Positions 6,289 through 25,974 of a stretch of 34,258 bases of DNA are shown here, in pieces. A program made the translations under genes and the position numbers. The stretch lies in the IMG/VR virus record IMGVR_UViG_3300020122_000232, positions 1 through 34,258 of that record; one strand, written 5' to 3'. Every line of letters starts with the position of its first letter. The stretch's first letter is position 1. Source of the stretch: a virus. Under the pieces are notes generated by a model. That model was not told the origin of the DNA and did no database searches. It saw only the letters and a list, made by a program, of their open reading frames with translations.

Positions 6289-6878
6289 ATTTTTACGAAG
6301 CCCTTGACCTCGCTAAATCCCGTTCAGACTGCCACCCCTATAACATAGATTATTTGATGGGGGCCGTTTCCCACGTAACGTACATCCGGGGCGACATCGT
6401 TGAAATCGGAAGTTACAAATGCGGGGCTTCGATTGCAATGGCGGCATCTGTTCTCTATCACCAGAGAACACCCGGCCCCGTCGAAAAGAAAGTCTACGCC
6501 TTTGATACGTTCGGCGGCCTTCCTTACGACGAAGCGGTCGGGTTCGAGAATTTCGCTAACACTGACTGGGAAGAAATAAAAGAAACCGTCAAGCCTTTTG
6601 AAATAGTCTTAGTTCGCGGAAAGCACGAAGACACGATTCCGACTTTCCCGCCCCGTCCGCTATCCCTGATTTTCATGGATTCGGACCATTACAGCTCTCA
6701 CAAAGTTGCGCTTACCCATTTGTGGCCGATGCTATCGCACGAAGGGATCGTAGTATTCCACGACTGGGCTTTCCCCGGAGTTCAGAAAGCTATCGCGGAA
6801 ACAATTCCTGAGTTGGACATTTTAAGAAGCGGAACTTGTGAATCGTCCCCCAATATGGGGTACATCGTAAAAGTATAA
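6285..6878 (+). CDS. TylF-like SAM-dependent methyltransferase
   Basis: 197 residues. Motif I is GDIVEIGSYKCGAS (36-49), followed by YAFDTFGGLP (71-80), LSLIFMDSDHYSS (126-138) and GIVVFHDW (154-161). This matches the macrocin O-methyltransferase (TylF) / Methyltransf_24 pattern, including the Asp and His residues used in metal-dependent sugar O-methylation. It starts with GTG overlapping the previous stop (GTGA). The next gene begins in its stop (TAATG). With the cupin and glycosyltransferase it probably methylates a sugar on the virion, the DNA or a glycan precursor; the acceptor is unknown. Confidence 0.75.
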   Translation: MNFYEALDLAKSRSDCHPYNIDYLMGAVSHVTYIRGDIVEIGSYKCGASIAMAASVLYHQRTPGPVEKKVYAFDTFGGLPYDEAVGFENFANTDWEEIKETVKPFEIVLVRGKHEDTIPTFPPRPLSLIFMDSDHYSSHKVALTHLWPMLSHEGIVVFHDWAFPGVQKAIAETIPELDILRSGTCESSPNMGYIVKV

Positions 6879-8065
6879 TGTGGACTACTGAAAACGCCGC
6901 CACCCGAGTCGCGGAACTAGAAAGCATCTTTAAAGTTCGCCCAAACTCTCTCTTATGCACTGATTTAGCTTCGTGCTATTTCACTCTAGGCGAGACTGAA
7001 AAAGCCCTGCCCTATGCTCTGAAAGCATGGGAAAAAAACAAAAACCCCGACATCGCTTGTACGCTCGGCCTACTTCTCAAAGATGTTGGCCGCCACGACG
7101 AATCCGTAAAAGTCATGGAAGAAGCGTACCACCAGAAACCCGATGATTTTTATATTCGCATGGGTTACGGCGAAGGTTTGCTGAAAGCCGGGTTGTGGAA
7201 ACAAGCGTGGCCGATTTACGACAACTCGCGGCCCACCCAACTGGGTGCAGCGTGCGAACTACGAATCCCTAACACCGTTAAGGAATGGCAAGGCCAAGAT
7301 TTGAAATCCGATGAACTTCTTCTCGTCATCAACGAGGGAGGGGCTGGTGATCGAATATCTTACGCTCGATGGTTGCCGGAACTGACCAAACGCGGCGTAA
7401 ACTGGAAGTTCTATCCCTACGGGGAAATGTTTCCTTTTTTTGAACGGTTGTTCCCGCGCGAGTGTCTGGTTGCGGACGGCGACGACATTCCCGATCCGAC
7501 TCACTGGACAACGACTTTTGCTTTGCCCGCGAAACTGAACGTCGGGCCTACCGAAATTCCTAAACCGCTGCCACTCACTCCAAGCGCCGAAGCGGTGGCT
7601 AAATATAAAATGGAGCGCCCCGACAATCTTCCACTCGTTGGAATTTGTTACGAGGCCGCCGAACAGCATCAAGGCGGAAGGCGTTTTCGCTCTCTGACCG
7701 AAGGCCAAGCCATGCGTCTGGTTTGCATGACAGGCGATAAGGTTCACTGGGTGAATTTACAGCACGGTAGAAAAATGCCCGAGCCGGTTTCCAATATTGA
7801 TTTCCATACATGGGACGACACGGCAGGTCTGATAGCGAACCTGGACGCAGTAGTGACCGTCGATACCGGCACGATGCATCTCGCGGGCGCTATGAATAAA
7901 CCCATGGCGGTTTTGCTCGCGGCCAACTCCTGCTGGAAGTTTCTTCGCACCGGCAAGAAACTAAAACTTTATCCTTCCGCAACTTTCTATCGGAACAAAG
8001 TCCGAGGGTTTGAGGAAGCAATCACCGAACTTGTTTTTGCGATTCGTAACGGAACCGCTTGGTAG
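6878..8065 (+). CDS. TPR protein with GT-B (heptosyltransferase-like) domain, copy 1
   Basis: 395 residues. Residues 1-115 contain three TPR-like helix pairs (LASCYFTLGETEKALPYALKAW and similar). The rest resembles a GT-B glycosyltransferase of the GT9/TPR-linked type: INEGGAGDRI (151-160), VGICYEA (254-260), WDDTAGLIANLDAVVTVDT (312-330) and GTMHLAGAMNKP (331-342). A paralog with the same domain order is encoded at 21471-22796. The gene starts in the previous stop (TAATG) and ends the sugar operon. It probably adds a sugar to a phage protein or DNA; the acceptor is not readable. Confidence 0.75.
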   Translation: MWTTENAATRVAELESIFKVRPNSLLCTDLASCYFTLGETEKALPYALKAWEKNKNPDIACTLGLLLKDVGRHDESVKVMEEAYHQKPDDFYIRMGYGEGLLKAGLWKQAWPIYDNSRPTQLGAACELRIPNTVKEWQGQDLKSDELLLVINEGGAGDRISYARWLPELTKRGVNWKFYPYGEMFPFFERLFPRECLVADGDDIPDPTHWTTTFALPAKLNVGPTEIPKPLPLTPSAEAVAKYKMERPDNLPLVGICYEAAEQHQGGRRFRSLTEGQAMRLVCMTGDKVHWVNLQHGRKMPEPVSNIDFHTWDDTAGLIANLDAVVTVDTGTMHLAGAMNKPMAVLLAANSCWKFLRTGKKLKLYPSATFYRNKVRGFEEAITELVFAIRNGTAW

Positions 8066-17665: not shown

Positions 17666-18886
17666 ATGGCCGGATTTAATCCAGCATCTAACACTACTTC
17701 CAACTTGCCTCAGTCACGAGTTATTTACTACGACAAACGCTTCATTGAGAACTTGAAAGCTCAAACGCCTTTCGTGCGTTGCGCCGAACGTCGTGAATTG
17801 CCGATGAATTCCGGCAACCAGTTGGAACTTTTTATGTACAACACTTTTGGCGCGAATACCGCCCAAGTGTCTGAAGGAACGGTGCCTACGGGCATCAGCG
17901 CGTCGGTCGGAACCACGACTGCCACTATCGGGGAATATGCCGATTACGCGAACTTCAGTTCTCTTTCTCTCGCTACCGCCATCGACCCCGTGGTCGAAAA
18001 CGTCGGTCGCGAACTTTCGTATCGCCTTGGACAGTCTCTGTCCGCGATCACCCGTGCGGTTGCTGACGGCGCTTCCAGCGTTGACAGTTCCGTGTCGGTT
18101 AAGATCACCGGTGGTACCTCGTTGGCTCTCGCCAACATTCGCGCTCAGGTCCAGTCTTTGGCTGGCCGCGCAGTGCAGCCCTTCAACGAAGCGGAAGCAC
18201 TTTTTGCCGGAGTTGTACACCCGTTCGCCGTTGGCGACCTTCTGAACGATTCCAGCAACAACTCAGCAATCGACGTACTGAAGCACACCGTGCCTGGGCT
18301 CCAGCGCATGGATGATTTGGTCTCGGTTGATCTCGCGGACACGCTGGAGTTCCCGGCGTCTGGTGTCGCGTTCTTCCAGTCGAACTTGGTTACGCTGACG
18401 ACCGCGTATCAGGGTTCGGCGGCTTCGGTAGTTGCTTACCGGACCTACATTTTCGGTAAAGACGGTGTGATCGCGATTCGCCTCGGCGGACGTGGTGACA
18501 ACGCTATCGAAGATGGAAACTGGCGGAATATCGAATGTAACATCGTGCAGAACGCTCCTCTGAGCGTTGCCGATCCTTCCGGCCTCATCCCCGGTTGGAC
18601 CAGCTACCGTGTGCATTACACGGCTTCTCTGCCTCCCGATACAACGATAAACTAAACCCTGTCGTTGAAAAATTCTCTCTGATTGACTCGAAACCTGAAA
18701 CGGCAACGAGGCGCAAGCGAAAGCAGCGTGAACGACTAAGCGAGAGAACGAGCGAAAGCTTGATGCAATAGTCTGAACTCACGGGAAGAAAACCGTGAGA
18801 GGTAAGCAGAAATGACTTGCCCTAGTGAAAACTAGTAACAACCTTGGCGGTTGCGTTACATTGACGCTACGAGTGCGATCTCGTAA
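17666..18886 (+). CDS. Major capsid protein, interrupted by a group I intron
   Basis: Exons 17666-18648 and 18847-18886 join to give 340 residues. Without splicing the frame stops at 18655 after two intron-encoded residues, ending TTIN. Splicing gives PPDTT-MRLRYIDATSAIS then TAA (18884-18886). The N-terminus (YYDKRFIENLKAQTPFVRCA, GNQLELFMYN) resembles the N4 gp56 branch of HK97-fold capsid proteins. It forms the head shell. The scaffold-like gene lies 44 nt upstream. There is no clear SD before the ATG (AGTAGTAACAA), which is odd for the most abundant protein. Intron boundaries rest on P1, P10 and reading frame; exon 2 could alternatively begin at 18850. Confidence 0.85.
18649..18846 (+). 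ncRNA. Group I self-splicing intron in the capsid gene
   Basis: 198 nt with a full group I core. P1: exon CAACGAT (18642-18648) pairs with GTCGTTG (18661-18667), placing the canonical U-G pair at the 5' splice site. P3: TTCTCTC (18673-18679)/GAGAGAA (18742-18748). P4: CTCG (18687-18690)/CGAG (18707-18710), with AAA and CAA joiners around a small P5. P7: GACTA (18734-18738)/TAGTC (18769-18773). P8: CGAGC-GAAA-GCTTG (18749-18762). P9: CTCACGG (18778-18784)/CCGTGAG (18793-18799). Two further hairpins follow: GGTAAG/CTTGCC (18801-18821) and CTAGT-GAAA-ACTAG (18822-18835). The terminal G is 18846. P10 (GCGGTT with AAACCCT) has one mismatch. No endonuclease frame lies inside. The size is close to the smallest known group I introns. 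Confidence 0.9.
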
Positions 18887-18949: not shown

Positions 18950-19510
18950 CTACGGCTTAAAGTAATCTACTACAGCCTTACATGCTTTAAAAAATTCTTC
19001 AGGTGACTTATCCAATTTCATTTTGTTATGCACCCCGCAGGCGGGGACGCAATTCTCTAGCGTATACCCTTTGGAGCTATCAAGGCGATCTACGCCGTTG
19101 TATTGATACGGAGTGCCGTAAGTCTTCCCACCGTTATGCTTTCTGGTCAGAGTCTGACAAGGCGGAATTCCGCAATAATAGCAATTTCCTTTTGTCAAAG
19201 TTTTAAACTGCTCCAGCGTTAAGTCAAACGGGCGTTCACCTTTCGCCATCTGTTTATAGGTATTCATCAGTTGCCGAACCGCTCCTTCTCCGGGCGCAAG
19301 TTGGCACTGTTCTTTGAGAATCCGGGCTCGATTGCACCCACAGTTAGTGGACTTGTTGCGGCGAATAAAAGACCCTTTAACCCTCTTTTCTCGTCCACAG
19401 CGCAGGCAAACACAAAACCAGTAGGCGTCCATAGACCCATTACTCGGGGCGCGACGAACTACGAACCAATCATTGTGAATTTGGTACTGCAAATTGTATT
19501 TCGGGTCCAT
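18950..19510 (-). CDS. HNH endonuclease with N-terminal zinc motif
   Basis: 186 residues. A Cys-rich N-terminal unit (C33, C35, C38, C57, C59) precedes a long helical linker. The HNH domain then runs from GNCYYCGIPPC (108-118) through NGVDRLDSSKGYTLENCV (138-155) to ACGVHNKMK (157-165), the usual phage homing type. It lies convergent to the capsid gene, 63 nt past exon 2 and outside the intron. It has its own near-consensus promoter and SD (AAGGA). It probably cleaves capsid genes lacking the intron, or another site, and so spreads itself or the intron; the target is not known. Confidence 0.85.
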   Translation of the reverse strand: MDPKYNLQYQIHNDWFVVRRAPSNGSMDAYWFCVCLRCGREKRVKGSFIRRNKSTNCGCNRARILKEQCQLAPGEGAVRQLMNTYKQMAKGERPFDLTLEQFKTLTKGNCYYCGIPPCQTLTRKHNGGKTYGTPYQYNGVDRLDSSKGYTLENCVPACGVHNKMKLDKSPEEFFKACKAVVDYFKP

Positions 19511-21470: not shown

Positions 21471-22796
21471 ATGCAATTAGCATACCGCATACCCCCAAAT
21501 CGTGCCCAAGCAGGGACCCGAGCCGCTAAATGGATCAATCCGGATAAGAACGAAATCCTGATACCTAATGCGGAAGCGGCCTATGCCCAAATACAGGCAC
21601 TTGAAAAAGCCCTGAAACCGGGGATTTCTAAAAATCGTCGCGCAGAGCTATTAATAGCCCGTGCAATGATTTTTGAGGCTCTTGGTACCCCCGCGATGCT
21701 AAAAGCCGCCCAGCAAGCCTGGGATTGCACTAAAACGGCAATTACAGCGCATCTGATGGCCGTTGCATACCACCACCTAGGGGACATACCCAAAGCGTGT
21801 GATTTTTACTACAAAGCGCACGCCTATCCCCATGAGGCGGGATTCAGCATCGACTTAGCCTACACCCAAGCCCTTCTTTTCGATGGCCGGTGGACCGAGG
21901 CCCATAAAGAAACCCTGAAACTCAAAAAGCGCATGGTTTACGCGGCATACCTGCCGGAATGGGACCGGAAACCGTGCAAGGAACTCTCACTCATCAGTGA
22001 GGGTGGGTACGGGGATTTGATTCATACGGGTCGCTGGATTCCCATTCTGAACCAGATGGTTGAAAAATTAACCATCTACCTGCCGCCTTACTTTTTCCAG
22101 AGCGGGTTCGTGGATATGTTCCGCCGCCAGAAATGGTGCCCGGAGATTCGTTTACTAACTGAAGTACCGCAAAAAGTTCCCGCAGTCGGATTTTTTGACC
22201 TGCCCGCCGTGTTCAACGTGCAACCGGATAACATTCCGGAACCGCTAACGTTTGAACCGGATCCCGAGCGAGTGGAGTACTTCAAAAAATACATTAATGC
22301 GCCGGAAACTCGTACCCAGCCTTATGTTGGAATTTGCTGGGGCGCTCGGGCGATGGAAACGCCGCTTGTTGCAGCCGGGATTTATCGGACTTTAACCGAA
22401 AAACAGACCGAACAAATTCTCGCATCCGGTTTTGGTACCGCGAAGTTTGTCAAACTACAAAAAGAAGGTCTGGACGAACTCCTCTTTCCCATGATTCGGC
22501 CCGTAATTTCTTCTTGGGACGACACGGCGGCCATAATTAAAAATTTGGATTTCGTGATTACAGTGGATACCGCTGTTGCCCATTTAGCCGCGTCTATGGG
22601 AAAAGAAACGTGGGTAGTCTTATCCGGGGCGCTGGACTGGAAGTTCGGACTGAGTGAGTTCACCTGTCCCTGGTACCCAACTATGCGATTGTTCAAAAAT
22701 AATGGATTCGGATTCAACCAAGCCGTGTCCAATCTTTGTTCGGCGTTGACGAAACGGGAAGGTATTAAGGTATCTTCGGGTGAAGGCACTTTGTAA
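21471..22796 (+). CDS. TPR protein with GT-B (heptosyltransferase-like) domain, copy 2
   Basis: 441 residues, paralogous to the product of 6878-8065. TPR-like helices cover about 35-150 (AHLMAVAYHHLGDIPKACDF). The GT-B part contains LISEGGYGDLIHTGRW (174-189), VGICWGARAMETP, SWDDTAAIIKNLDFVITVDT and AVAHLAASMGKE, each matching the first copy. It has no SD and starts 32 nt from a divergent gene. The 3' end lies antisense to a nuclease gene (22620-22796 overlap). It probably glycosylates a virion component; substrate unknown. Confidence 0.75.
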   Translation: MQLAYRIPPNRAQAGTRAAKWINPDKNEILIPNAEAAYAQIQALEKALKPGISKNRRAELLIARAMIFEALGTPAMLKAAQQAWDCTKTAITAHLMAVAYHHLGDIPKACDFYYKAHAYPHEAGFSIDLAYTQALLFDGRWTEAHKETLKLKKRMVYAAYLPEWDRKPCKELSLISEGGYGDLIHTGRWIPILNQMVEKLTIYLPPYFFQSGFVDMFRRQKWCPEIRLLTEVPQKVPAVGFFDLPAVFNVQPDNIPEPLTFEPDPERVEYFKKYINAPETRTQPYVGICWGARAMETPLVAAGIYRTLTEKQTEQILASGFGTAKFVKLQKEGLDELLFPMIRPVISSWDDTAAIIKNLDFVITVDTAVAHLAASMGKETWVVLSGALDWKFGLSEFTCPWYPTMRLFKNNGFGFNQAVSNLCSALTKREGIKVSSGEGTL

Positions 22797-24996: not shown

Positions 24997-25386
24997 ATGA
25001 CCTTACACATAGAAATAGACGCCCAGAAACTAAACCCGCAGCCGAATCCAACCCCGGTCATTCCAGCCAACGGGGTTTCAACCGCGCCGTTTGTTGAATC
25101 CTCAGTTTTGGACAATCCGGGAGTTTCGCCTGTACCTGTTTTGGGTTCATCTGTACCCGTTCCGGGTACGCAAGACCCAGCGTTCATCATTACGACAGCG
25201 GACGCCCGAGCAACCTACCAATGGCCGGATGGGTCGTGGCGGCAATACCCCGTGAATTTACAAAGTGAAAATCTAGCTTACGGAACCGGGCCGCTTTACC
25301 AGAACGCCGGTGGATTTGGCGGACCAGTTAACAACCCCGGAACGAACCAGTCCAGCCCGTTCAATCCAGCAGTGGCGCAGCATTGA
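24997..25386 (+). CDS. Pro-rich hypothetical protein
   Basis: 129 residues. An N-terminal strand (TLHIEIDAQKL) is followed by a long Pro/Val/Gly-rich region with ESSVLDNPGVSPVPVLGSS, then a compact segment (ARATYQWPDGSWRQYPVNLQ) and a Gly/Asn/Pro tail. The SSxLDNPG motif is shared with the gene at 24350. No SD; the upstream TCTCCT is the complement of the divergent gene's SD. Probably a virion-associated protein, by context. Confidence 0.55.
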   Translation: MTLHIEIDAQKLNPQPNPTPVIPANGVSTAPFVESSVLDNPGVSPVPVLGSSVPVPGTQDPAFIITTADARATYQWPDGSWRQYPVNLQSENLAYGTGPLYQNAGGFGGPVNNPGTNQSSPFNPAVAQH

Positions 25387-25552
25387 CCGTACCGGAAGAA
25401 AGAACTTTATCCAGGGCCGCAATCGTTACGGTTCTGATTGCATCTTTATTAACCATCTCTGCTAAATAAGGACTCTCTAGCACTAATAAAGTTGTAGGAA
25501 GATTCTGAAGAAACATCATCGCATCCGTTTTCCGTTCAAAAACCGGTTCCAT
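25361..25552 (-). CDS. Small antisense helical protein
   Basis: 63 residues on the minus strand, helical (TDAMMFLQNLPTTLLVLESPYL, IRTVTIAALDKVL), not recognised. It has a strong SD (AGGAG) and its own promoter (25584-25612), which make it one of the best supported small genes. It converges with the gene at 24997 and overlaps its last 26 nt. Confidence 0.65.
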   Translation of the reverse strand: MEPVFERKTDAMMFLQNLPTTLLVLESPYLAEMVNKDAIRTVTIAALDKVLSSGTVNAAPLLD

Positions 25553-25583
25553 TTTATCTCCTTAGCATTTTAGCCATCAAACA

Positions 25584-25612
25584 AGTATACCTAATAAATG
25601 AACAAATGTCAA
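25584..25612 (-). promoter_or_regulatory. Sigma70 promoter of the antisense 63-residue gene
   Basis: On the minus strand TTGACA (25607-25612), a 17-nt spacer and TATACT (25584-25589). The -35 box overlaps the ATG of the plus-strand gene at 25606. Confidence 0.7.
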
Positions 25613-25974
25613 CTACTTTAACTGGAACTCAAAAGACCCTGCAAAGCGCCGAGAATTTAATCCCGCTTCCGGTAACTGGCCCCACCGCTCAGATTTTTTC
25701 CGAGGGCGATTCCGTAACCCAACTCCAGACCGTAGTTACATCCCTGATTTACCAAAGCAATTCCGTGAGCGTGACGGACGGAACGACCGCCGATTCACAA
25801 GTGAACTACGTAGGAAGCAATGGCGGCACACCAATGTTCGCAATCAAAAACCCCAATGGCGCAACACCGCCGAATTTAAATAGCCAGTTAGAAGCACCCG
25901 CAATTCCAGCAACCACAAACGAAGGTTTCAATACGAACGGAACAATCCGTCAAGGACTTATCGGCGCACTATGA
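25606..25974 (+). CDS. Hypothetical probable tail-region protein
   Basis: 122 residues, rich in Thr, Ser, Asn and Gly, beta-like, not recognised. Segments: GTQKTLQSAENLIPLPVTG, SLIYQSNSVSVTDG and MFAIKNPNGATPPNL. There is no SD, and its start codon overlaps the -35 box of the divergent gene. It ends in ATGA with the phosphatase gene, so the two are coupled. A TTCAC/GTGAA dyad lies inside at 25794. Confidence 0.6.
   Translation: MSTTLTGTQKTLQSAENLIPLPVTGPTAQIFSEGDSVTQLQTVVTSLIYQSNSVSVTDGTTADSQVNYVGSNGGTPMFAIKNPNGATPPNLNSQLEAPAIPATTNEGFNTNGTIRQGLIGAL
25794..25805. repeat. Dyad TTCAC-AA-GTGAA, copy 6
   Basis: Perfect dyad inside a coding region. With the following ACTAC it matches the minus strand at 21102-21117 over 16 nt. 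Confidence 0.5.

Follow-up and report, generated by a model that had tools for sequence, protein, structure and literature searches.

The window analysed here, the whole 34,258-nucleotide (nt) stretch of viral DNA at positions 1 to 34,258 of IMG/VR record IMGVR_UViG_3300020122_000232, contains a major capsid protein (MCP) gene that is interrupted near its 3' end by a compact group I intron. The first exon (17666-18648, + strand) matches the phrog_1357 major head protein family with an E-value of 2.5e-18 and has homologs that are 97-55% identical. The second exon (18847-18886, + strand) supplies the last 13 codons, with codon 328 split 2+1 by the intron, and the true stop codon at 18884-18886, in agreement with intronless homologs. 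The intervening intron (18649-18846, + strand) is 198 nt long, contains no open reading frame (ORF), ends in a G, and was delineated from sequence, folding, covariation and a covariance model. Shortly inside it, an in-frame TAA (18653-18655, + strand) forms the false end of the unspliced ORF. A free-standing HNH/EndoVII-like endonuclease gene, identified by a family match and by homologs, lies antisense to the MCP gene (18950-19510, - strand), 64 nt past its stop codon.

Splice junction and anatomy of the intron

Translated without splicing, the MCP frame runs from 17666 to the TAA at 18653-18655 and gives a protein of 329 residues ending in ...LPPDTTIN. Joining 18648 to 18847 in silico instead gives a protein of 340 residues, ...LPPDTT-MRLRYIDATSAIS, which terminates at 18884-18886; the end is thus exchanged for ...LPPDTTMRLRYIDATSAIS, and insert-free close relatives end identically. 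The predicted spliced C-terminus, ...RLRYIDATSAIS, is the one that uninterrupted alleles read without a break, and the intronless MCP genes of four relatives (L001, L002, L003 and L005) run unbroken to ...TMRLR(T/Y)IDATSAxS. Seven of the C-terminal residues that the unspliced form lacks (R329, R331, I333, D334, S337, A338 and S340) are invariant among MCP homologs. Since intronless alleles read through to the same end, we take the splice sites, the junction and the 340-residue protein to be correct. The preliminary description of this DNA had placed the intron at 18649-18846, had proposed that splicing removes the stop at 18653-18655 and provides a new C-terminus, and had named alignment with intronless capsid homologs as a check. 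That alignment sets the boundaries at exactly these positions and agrees with both the junction and the new C-terminus. Taking the intron into account changes where a major virion protein is annotated to end.

The 5' exon strand of P1, CAACGAU (18642-18648), ends in the splice-site U and pairs with the internal guide sequence GUCGUUG (18661-18667), the 3' strand of P1, such that U18648 faces G18661 in a U.G pair; L022 carries at this site an intron whose P1, of different sequence, pairs too. The 5' strand of P3, UUCUCUC (18673-18679), pairs with GAGAGAA (18742-18748), and six of its seven pairs co-vary. P4 (18687-18690/18707-18710), P5 (18694-18695/18702-18703) and the 5' strand of P6 occupy 18687-18717 and could be placed by structural alignment and covariation. 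The 5' strand of P7 (18732-18738), which forms the guanosine-binding site, reads A, a bulged C and then GACUA, and pairs with 18769-18774, its first pair varying between A-U and G-C. Covariation likewise supports P8 (GAGC-GAAA-GCUU with a GAAA loop, 18750-18761), P9 (CUCACGG/CCGUGAG, 18778-18799) and P9.1 (GGUAAG/CUUGCC, 18801-18821), and P9.2 (CUAGU-GAAA-ACUAG, again with a GAAA loop, 18822-18835) was read from sequence and folding. The terminal G (18846) is the 3' splice site, as given by the insert boundaries relative to intronless alleles. All these elements are on the + strand. The intron thus has the U.G pair in P1 at the 5' splice site, the final G, and a P3-P8 core in canonical order with a single bulged base in P7, backed by covariation. 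Every helix that had been proposed at the outset (P1 with its U-G pair, P3, P4, P5, P7, P8 with its GAAA loop, P9 and two further hairpins) is present, as is P6, and the intron class, splice sites and reading-frame effect hold as originally described.

This fold is supported by an alignment of 17 introns, the window core plus 16 homologous inserts of further capsid genes. The structure derived from the window is paired in 95.2% of alignment cells, versus 80.3% after shuffling and 34-46% when the partners are slid by one to three columns, and two-sided changes occur at 28 of its 41 pairs, a number equalled by none of 500 shuffles. A covariance model trained only on introns of other phages, with the window held out, recognizes the intron with 162.8 bits (E-value of 1.7e-32) as its sole match in the whole window. 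When calibrated on three stretches of phage DNA whose introns are known, the same model found the capsid-gene intron of mycobacteriophage LittleE best (E-value of 3.8e-9) and the T4 nrdD intron next, though weakly (E-value of 0.028).

The LittleE match links the window intron by homology to a member of the class that has been verified experimentally. That intron, of 819 nt in gene 13, is spliced in vivo as demonstrated by reverse transcription PCR and protein sequencing, and is considered by its authors most likely to be group I; the same work points to Tuc2009 as a further precedent of an intron in a capsid gene (PMC3706429). Like the window, LittleE has a major capsid gene interrupted by a group I type intron with an exon-final U and an intron-final G, but its intron is longer and has an antisense endonuclease gene within it, whereas that of the window is 198 nt long and the antisense HNH gene stands outside the capsid gene. 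The T4 nrdD (sunY) intron belongs to the same class but, unlike the window intron, holds the I-TevII ORF and interrupts a non-structural gene. We regard the assignment of 18649-18846 to group I as settled at the level of sequence, and in terms of class the intron is a further case of something already known; splicing itself is what we infer from it. Following transcription, the exon end CAACGAU would pair with the guide GUCGUUG in P1, a guanosine bound at P7 would attack after U18648, and the freed exon would attack after G18846, so that 18648 is joined to 18847 and the 340-residue capsid protein is restored. In unspliced RNA, translation would stop at 18653-18655.

Close homologs of the window intron (70-80% identical) are found in L028, at the same site, and in other phages at several different positions of the MCP gene, which suggests that this intron family moves between sites. 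It is very probable, as far as sequence can tell, that the late capsid gene of the window carries a compact group I intron without an ORF, which is spliced to give the 340-residue MCP, belongs to a family spread over several MCP sites, and has the downstream HNH gene as its likely homing partner. Three observations weigh against this interpretation. The putative P10, in which 18655-18660 (+ strand, read from sequence) faces the exon 2 start GCGGUU, has five of six pairs including one G.U, and carries one C.C mismatch. The HNH gene lies outside the intron. Finally, the Rfam group I model RF00028 does not match the intron at gathering or permissive thresholds, even at an E-value of up to 10.

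This last result is also the one that would favour reading 18649-18846 as an insertion or a decayed element, with the true capsid protein ending in PPDTTIN. We consider that very improbable, given that it would remove C-terminal residues highly conserved in homologs and that the core co-varies with P1 and P7 intact. RF00028 does detect some introns of another type in the relatives (for example, that of L155 at 58 bits), and we attribute its silence here to a limit of the model, a recognition aid rather than a defining feature, which misses this compact subtype. The Infernal search suggested earlier was thus negative with RF00028 itself and positive with the clade-specific model, which also detects LittleE. 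We note that the compact phage subtype missed by RF00028 spans about 190-236 nt and is found by a small custom model at E-values below 1e-26 in many contigs. As the window intron escapes Rfam, similar introns are probably missed widely.

Inserts across the capsid gene family and a possible homing partner

Four scans of viral contigs gave 123 distinct capsid genes, of which 69 are uninterrupted and 54 (~44%) carry inserts, at about 30 sites. Among bacterial genomes, the search for relatives gave one intronless copy. By length, the inserts form three groups (33-98 nt, 180-236 nt, and 567 nt or more), and many members of the last contain endonuclease genes; those inserts of the two longer groups that were checked are group I introns. 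The shortest group, hereafter mini-inserts, comprises 28 distinct sequences at 11 sites, six of which are also sites of full introns. The initial view that introns this small are rare was an overstatement, as introns of similar size (189-236 nt) are common in this clade. The Jug phages, moreover, have group I introns averaging about 206 nt, at 18.5 per genome, with RNA reads supporting the splicing of 37 of 76 (PMC12363816). As here, those introns are small, numerous within a lineage and accompanied by endonuclease genes that mostly stand alone, but the Jug phages are another clade with another host, and the main intron genes named are terL, nrdD and DNA polymerase (PMC12363816). The related view that few such introns are described in capsid genes needs qualification: precedents exist in LittleE and Tuc2009, and inserts interrupt a large fraction of the MCP genes sampled in this clade. 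The closest cultured relative, the Tunturiibacter (Acidobacteriota) phage Tunturi_3 (PP885686; PMC11924767), has an MCP that is homologous (65% identical) but uninterrupted, and the intron model finds no match in its 97.6-kb genome.

Some introns in the MCP genes of relatives, aligned with intact genes, apparently end in A and not G. These are introns at residues 185-213 in L019, L032, L127, L135, L137, L172, L186 and L241, at residue 53 in L021-L027, and at residue 30 in L113 and L149 (for example, ...AACAATAATA/CCTTTTGC, the slash marking the boundary).

Homologs of the HNH endonuclease (33-40% identical) are encoded inside MCP intron inserts of six relatives (L149, L152, L162, L170, L174 and L222). 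As this endonuclease family occurs inside introns of the same gene, the HNH protein is a plausible homing partner of the window intron, and we infer such a role from its distribution. One form of this proposal is collaborative homing, in which the free-standing HNH gene would promote the spread of the ORF-less intron to capsid alleles lacking introns. The gene adjoins that of the MCP, an HNH homolog has the same antisense arrangement downstream of the MCP gene in L007, and the close relatives L044 and L076, which have no intron at the window's site, lack the HNH nucleotide stretch. Homologs, however, also follow capsid genes that have no intron (L069, L080, L089 and L106), and we see the case for collaborative homing as evenly poised.

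Coreless mini-inserts with a splice-type signature

The mini-inserts disrupt reading frames in genes that appear functional. Each of the 28 contains an in-frame stop, 17 also shift the frame, and all three codon phases occur. Exons downstream of mini-inserts are nevertheless under strong purifying selection, with ratios of nonsynonymous to synonymous polymorphism (pN/pS) of 0.05-0.08 in clean pairs (some values, those of L028, of L155/L180 and of L022 downstream, are spoiled by mis-joined exons and were not used), and the same mini-insert recurs in independent samples (L021-L027). Conserved downstream exons and recurrence, despite the stops, imply that the gene must be read across the mini-inserts. 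At 33-98 nt they are too short for a P3-P8 catalytic core of their own and are therefore not classed as group I introns. Outside the MCP gene, no convincing mini-insert was seen in four mini-bearing records; the short inserts there, with lengths in multiples of three and low identity, are ordinary protein indels.

Boundaries of the mini-inserts were set by alignment with intact homologs; they are unique at site 314, and elsewhere the tied placements were chosen by terminal U and G. The exon-final U faces a G of the insert in 28 of 28 (A or G being equally allowed), versus 52% for random coding segments. P1 has at least 5 base pairs (bp) in 27 of 28, a P10 of 4-8 bp joins exon 2 to the bases beside P1, and all end in G. 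The combination of a P1 of 5 bp or more and a P10 of 4 bp or more is found in 27 of 28 mini-inserts versus 10 of 4999 matched pseudo-introns; pairing as good as that of the mini-inserts as a whole is seen in 12 of 4999 random segments, and the summed P1 and P10 pairing is 358 against a shuffled null of 151 (standard deviation of 8). About half of the full introns, and none of the mini-inserts, have a P10 of 3 bp or less; a strong P10 is what one would predict if P9 were not available to position the 3' splice site. The ten distinct mini-inserts at site 314 keep this pairing despite varying third positions in the exon (GGA/GGT/GGC T opposite G-U/G-A/G-G), and permuting the guides among genes destroys it (0 of 20000 for P1 and 0.0006 for P10). 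L297, read after the signature was defined, has a mini-insert of the L031 type in which the guide and P10 strand are unchanged and the rest is altered. A 45-nt mini-insert in L181 lies about four codons upstream of the window intron's site. Downstream of the guide, no motif is shared by the mini-inserts, the best 5-mer not exceeding shuffles.

Mini-inserts also occur together with full introns. Full introns are present in 28 and absent from one of the mini-bearing genes, compared with 25 and 69 of the mini-free genes (Fisher's exact test, 5e-12, relatedness ignored), and the lone mini-bearing gene without one is on a contig that ends at residue 48. In L225, an 83-kb record, the mini-insert is accompanied in the MCP gene by a single LAGLIDADG-type intron, and L128 combines a 35-nt mini-insert with an intron of 200 nt.

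From these sequence features, we favour, with some reservation, the view that the mini-inserts are genuine introns that lost the core and kept only the guide (P1 and P10) and the terminal G, and that their splicing depends on the core of a different group I intron, present in the transcript itself or elsewhere in the cell. Excision by the core of a resident full-length intron, which we rate as somewhat probable, would be a natural counterpart of an engineered group I spliceozyme that removes introns of 64 and 100 nt in trans, the former in E. coli (PMC4094466). That system likewise has a coreless intron removed by a group I core in trans, but its guide helices are on the ribozyme, whereas the guide of the mini-inserts lies within the intron (PMC4094466). 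The splice-type signature, the exon-guide covariation at site 314, the stops in all three phases ahead of constrained exons, the co-occurrence with full introns and the sites shared with them all argue for trans-excision. On the other hand, the mini-inserts are in relatives and not in the window, a docking element and a partner core are putative, the co-occurrence is partly phylogenetic (mini-inserts are found in 17 of 63 sequence clusters), P1 of the L160 mini-insert is only 3 bp, and terminal U and G served to pick tied boundaries at most sites, site 314 being unique. We found no natural case of introns excised in trans in this manner in the open-access literature, and a search for closely similar intron-bearing and intronless contigs, as proof at the RNA level, gave a best pair of mini-bearing and intronless contigs only 97% identical.

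The mini-inserts could instead be skipped by ribosomes without splicing, as in the translational bypassing of T4 gene 60, whose coding gap of roughly 50 nt with an in-frame stop resembles them in length range and in the stop. We consider this improbable. Identical take-off and landing codons are found in none of the 28 mini-inserts, which have the splice-type signature instead, bypassing at site 314 would skip an invariant Trp, and all three codon phases occur; neither that signature nor the accompanying full introns would be predicted by bypassing. Were trans-excision by a resident core to be correct, it would represent a new type of splicing, namely group I trans-splicing occurring in nature, with a single catalyst serving many minimal introns, much as in spliceosomal splicing. 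Group I introns would then have undergone the change proposed for group II introns in the origin of the spliceosome, viz., degeneration of the introns with catalysis supplied in trans. One capsid gene family holds, at about 30 sites, both full group I introns and putative coreless minimal ones, with intronless alleles for comparison, and trans-excision could be studied there with simple constructs in a laboratory strain.

Two sets of unspliced reading frames end alike. Residue-314 mini-inserts, read unspliced (L021/L022, L029-L031, L134, L144 and L180), give similar in-frame tails with many synonymous changes (for example, ...SGKAMAAVAGR, ...SSKSMAAVAGR and ...VMSAAAGR, each followed by a stop), and introns near residue 188 (L036, L166, L179, L218 and L222) give similar Ala-rich tails (for example, KAMAAAA and KAFAAAA, also followed by a stop). 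The shared tails possibly act as a degradation tag on unspliced capsid fragments.

Other features of the window and its relatives

A second intron in the window, at 25387-25617, was considered on account of a 226-nt insert relative to G001, and was rejected as it has no match to the model or to Rfam and no group I features were seen. The flanking ORFs of the window (24997-25386 and 25606-25974), about 226 nt apart, are matched by a single unbroken gene in the L007 phage (G001, 23740-24261). A diverged second copy of the C-terminal part of the MCP (about residues 288-325) is present in L002 (5251-5334) and L022 (6161-6262), 1-2.5 kb downstream of the MCP gene and within another gene. Two proteins of the window, encoded at 6878-8065 and 21471-22796, each have a short match to glycosyltransferase family 9, the first also having TPR repeats, and they may be paralogous.
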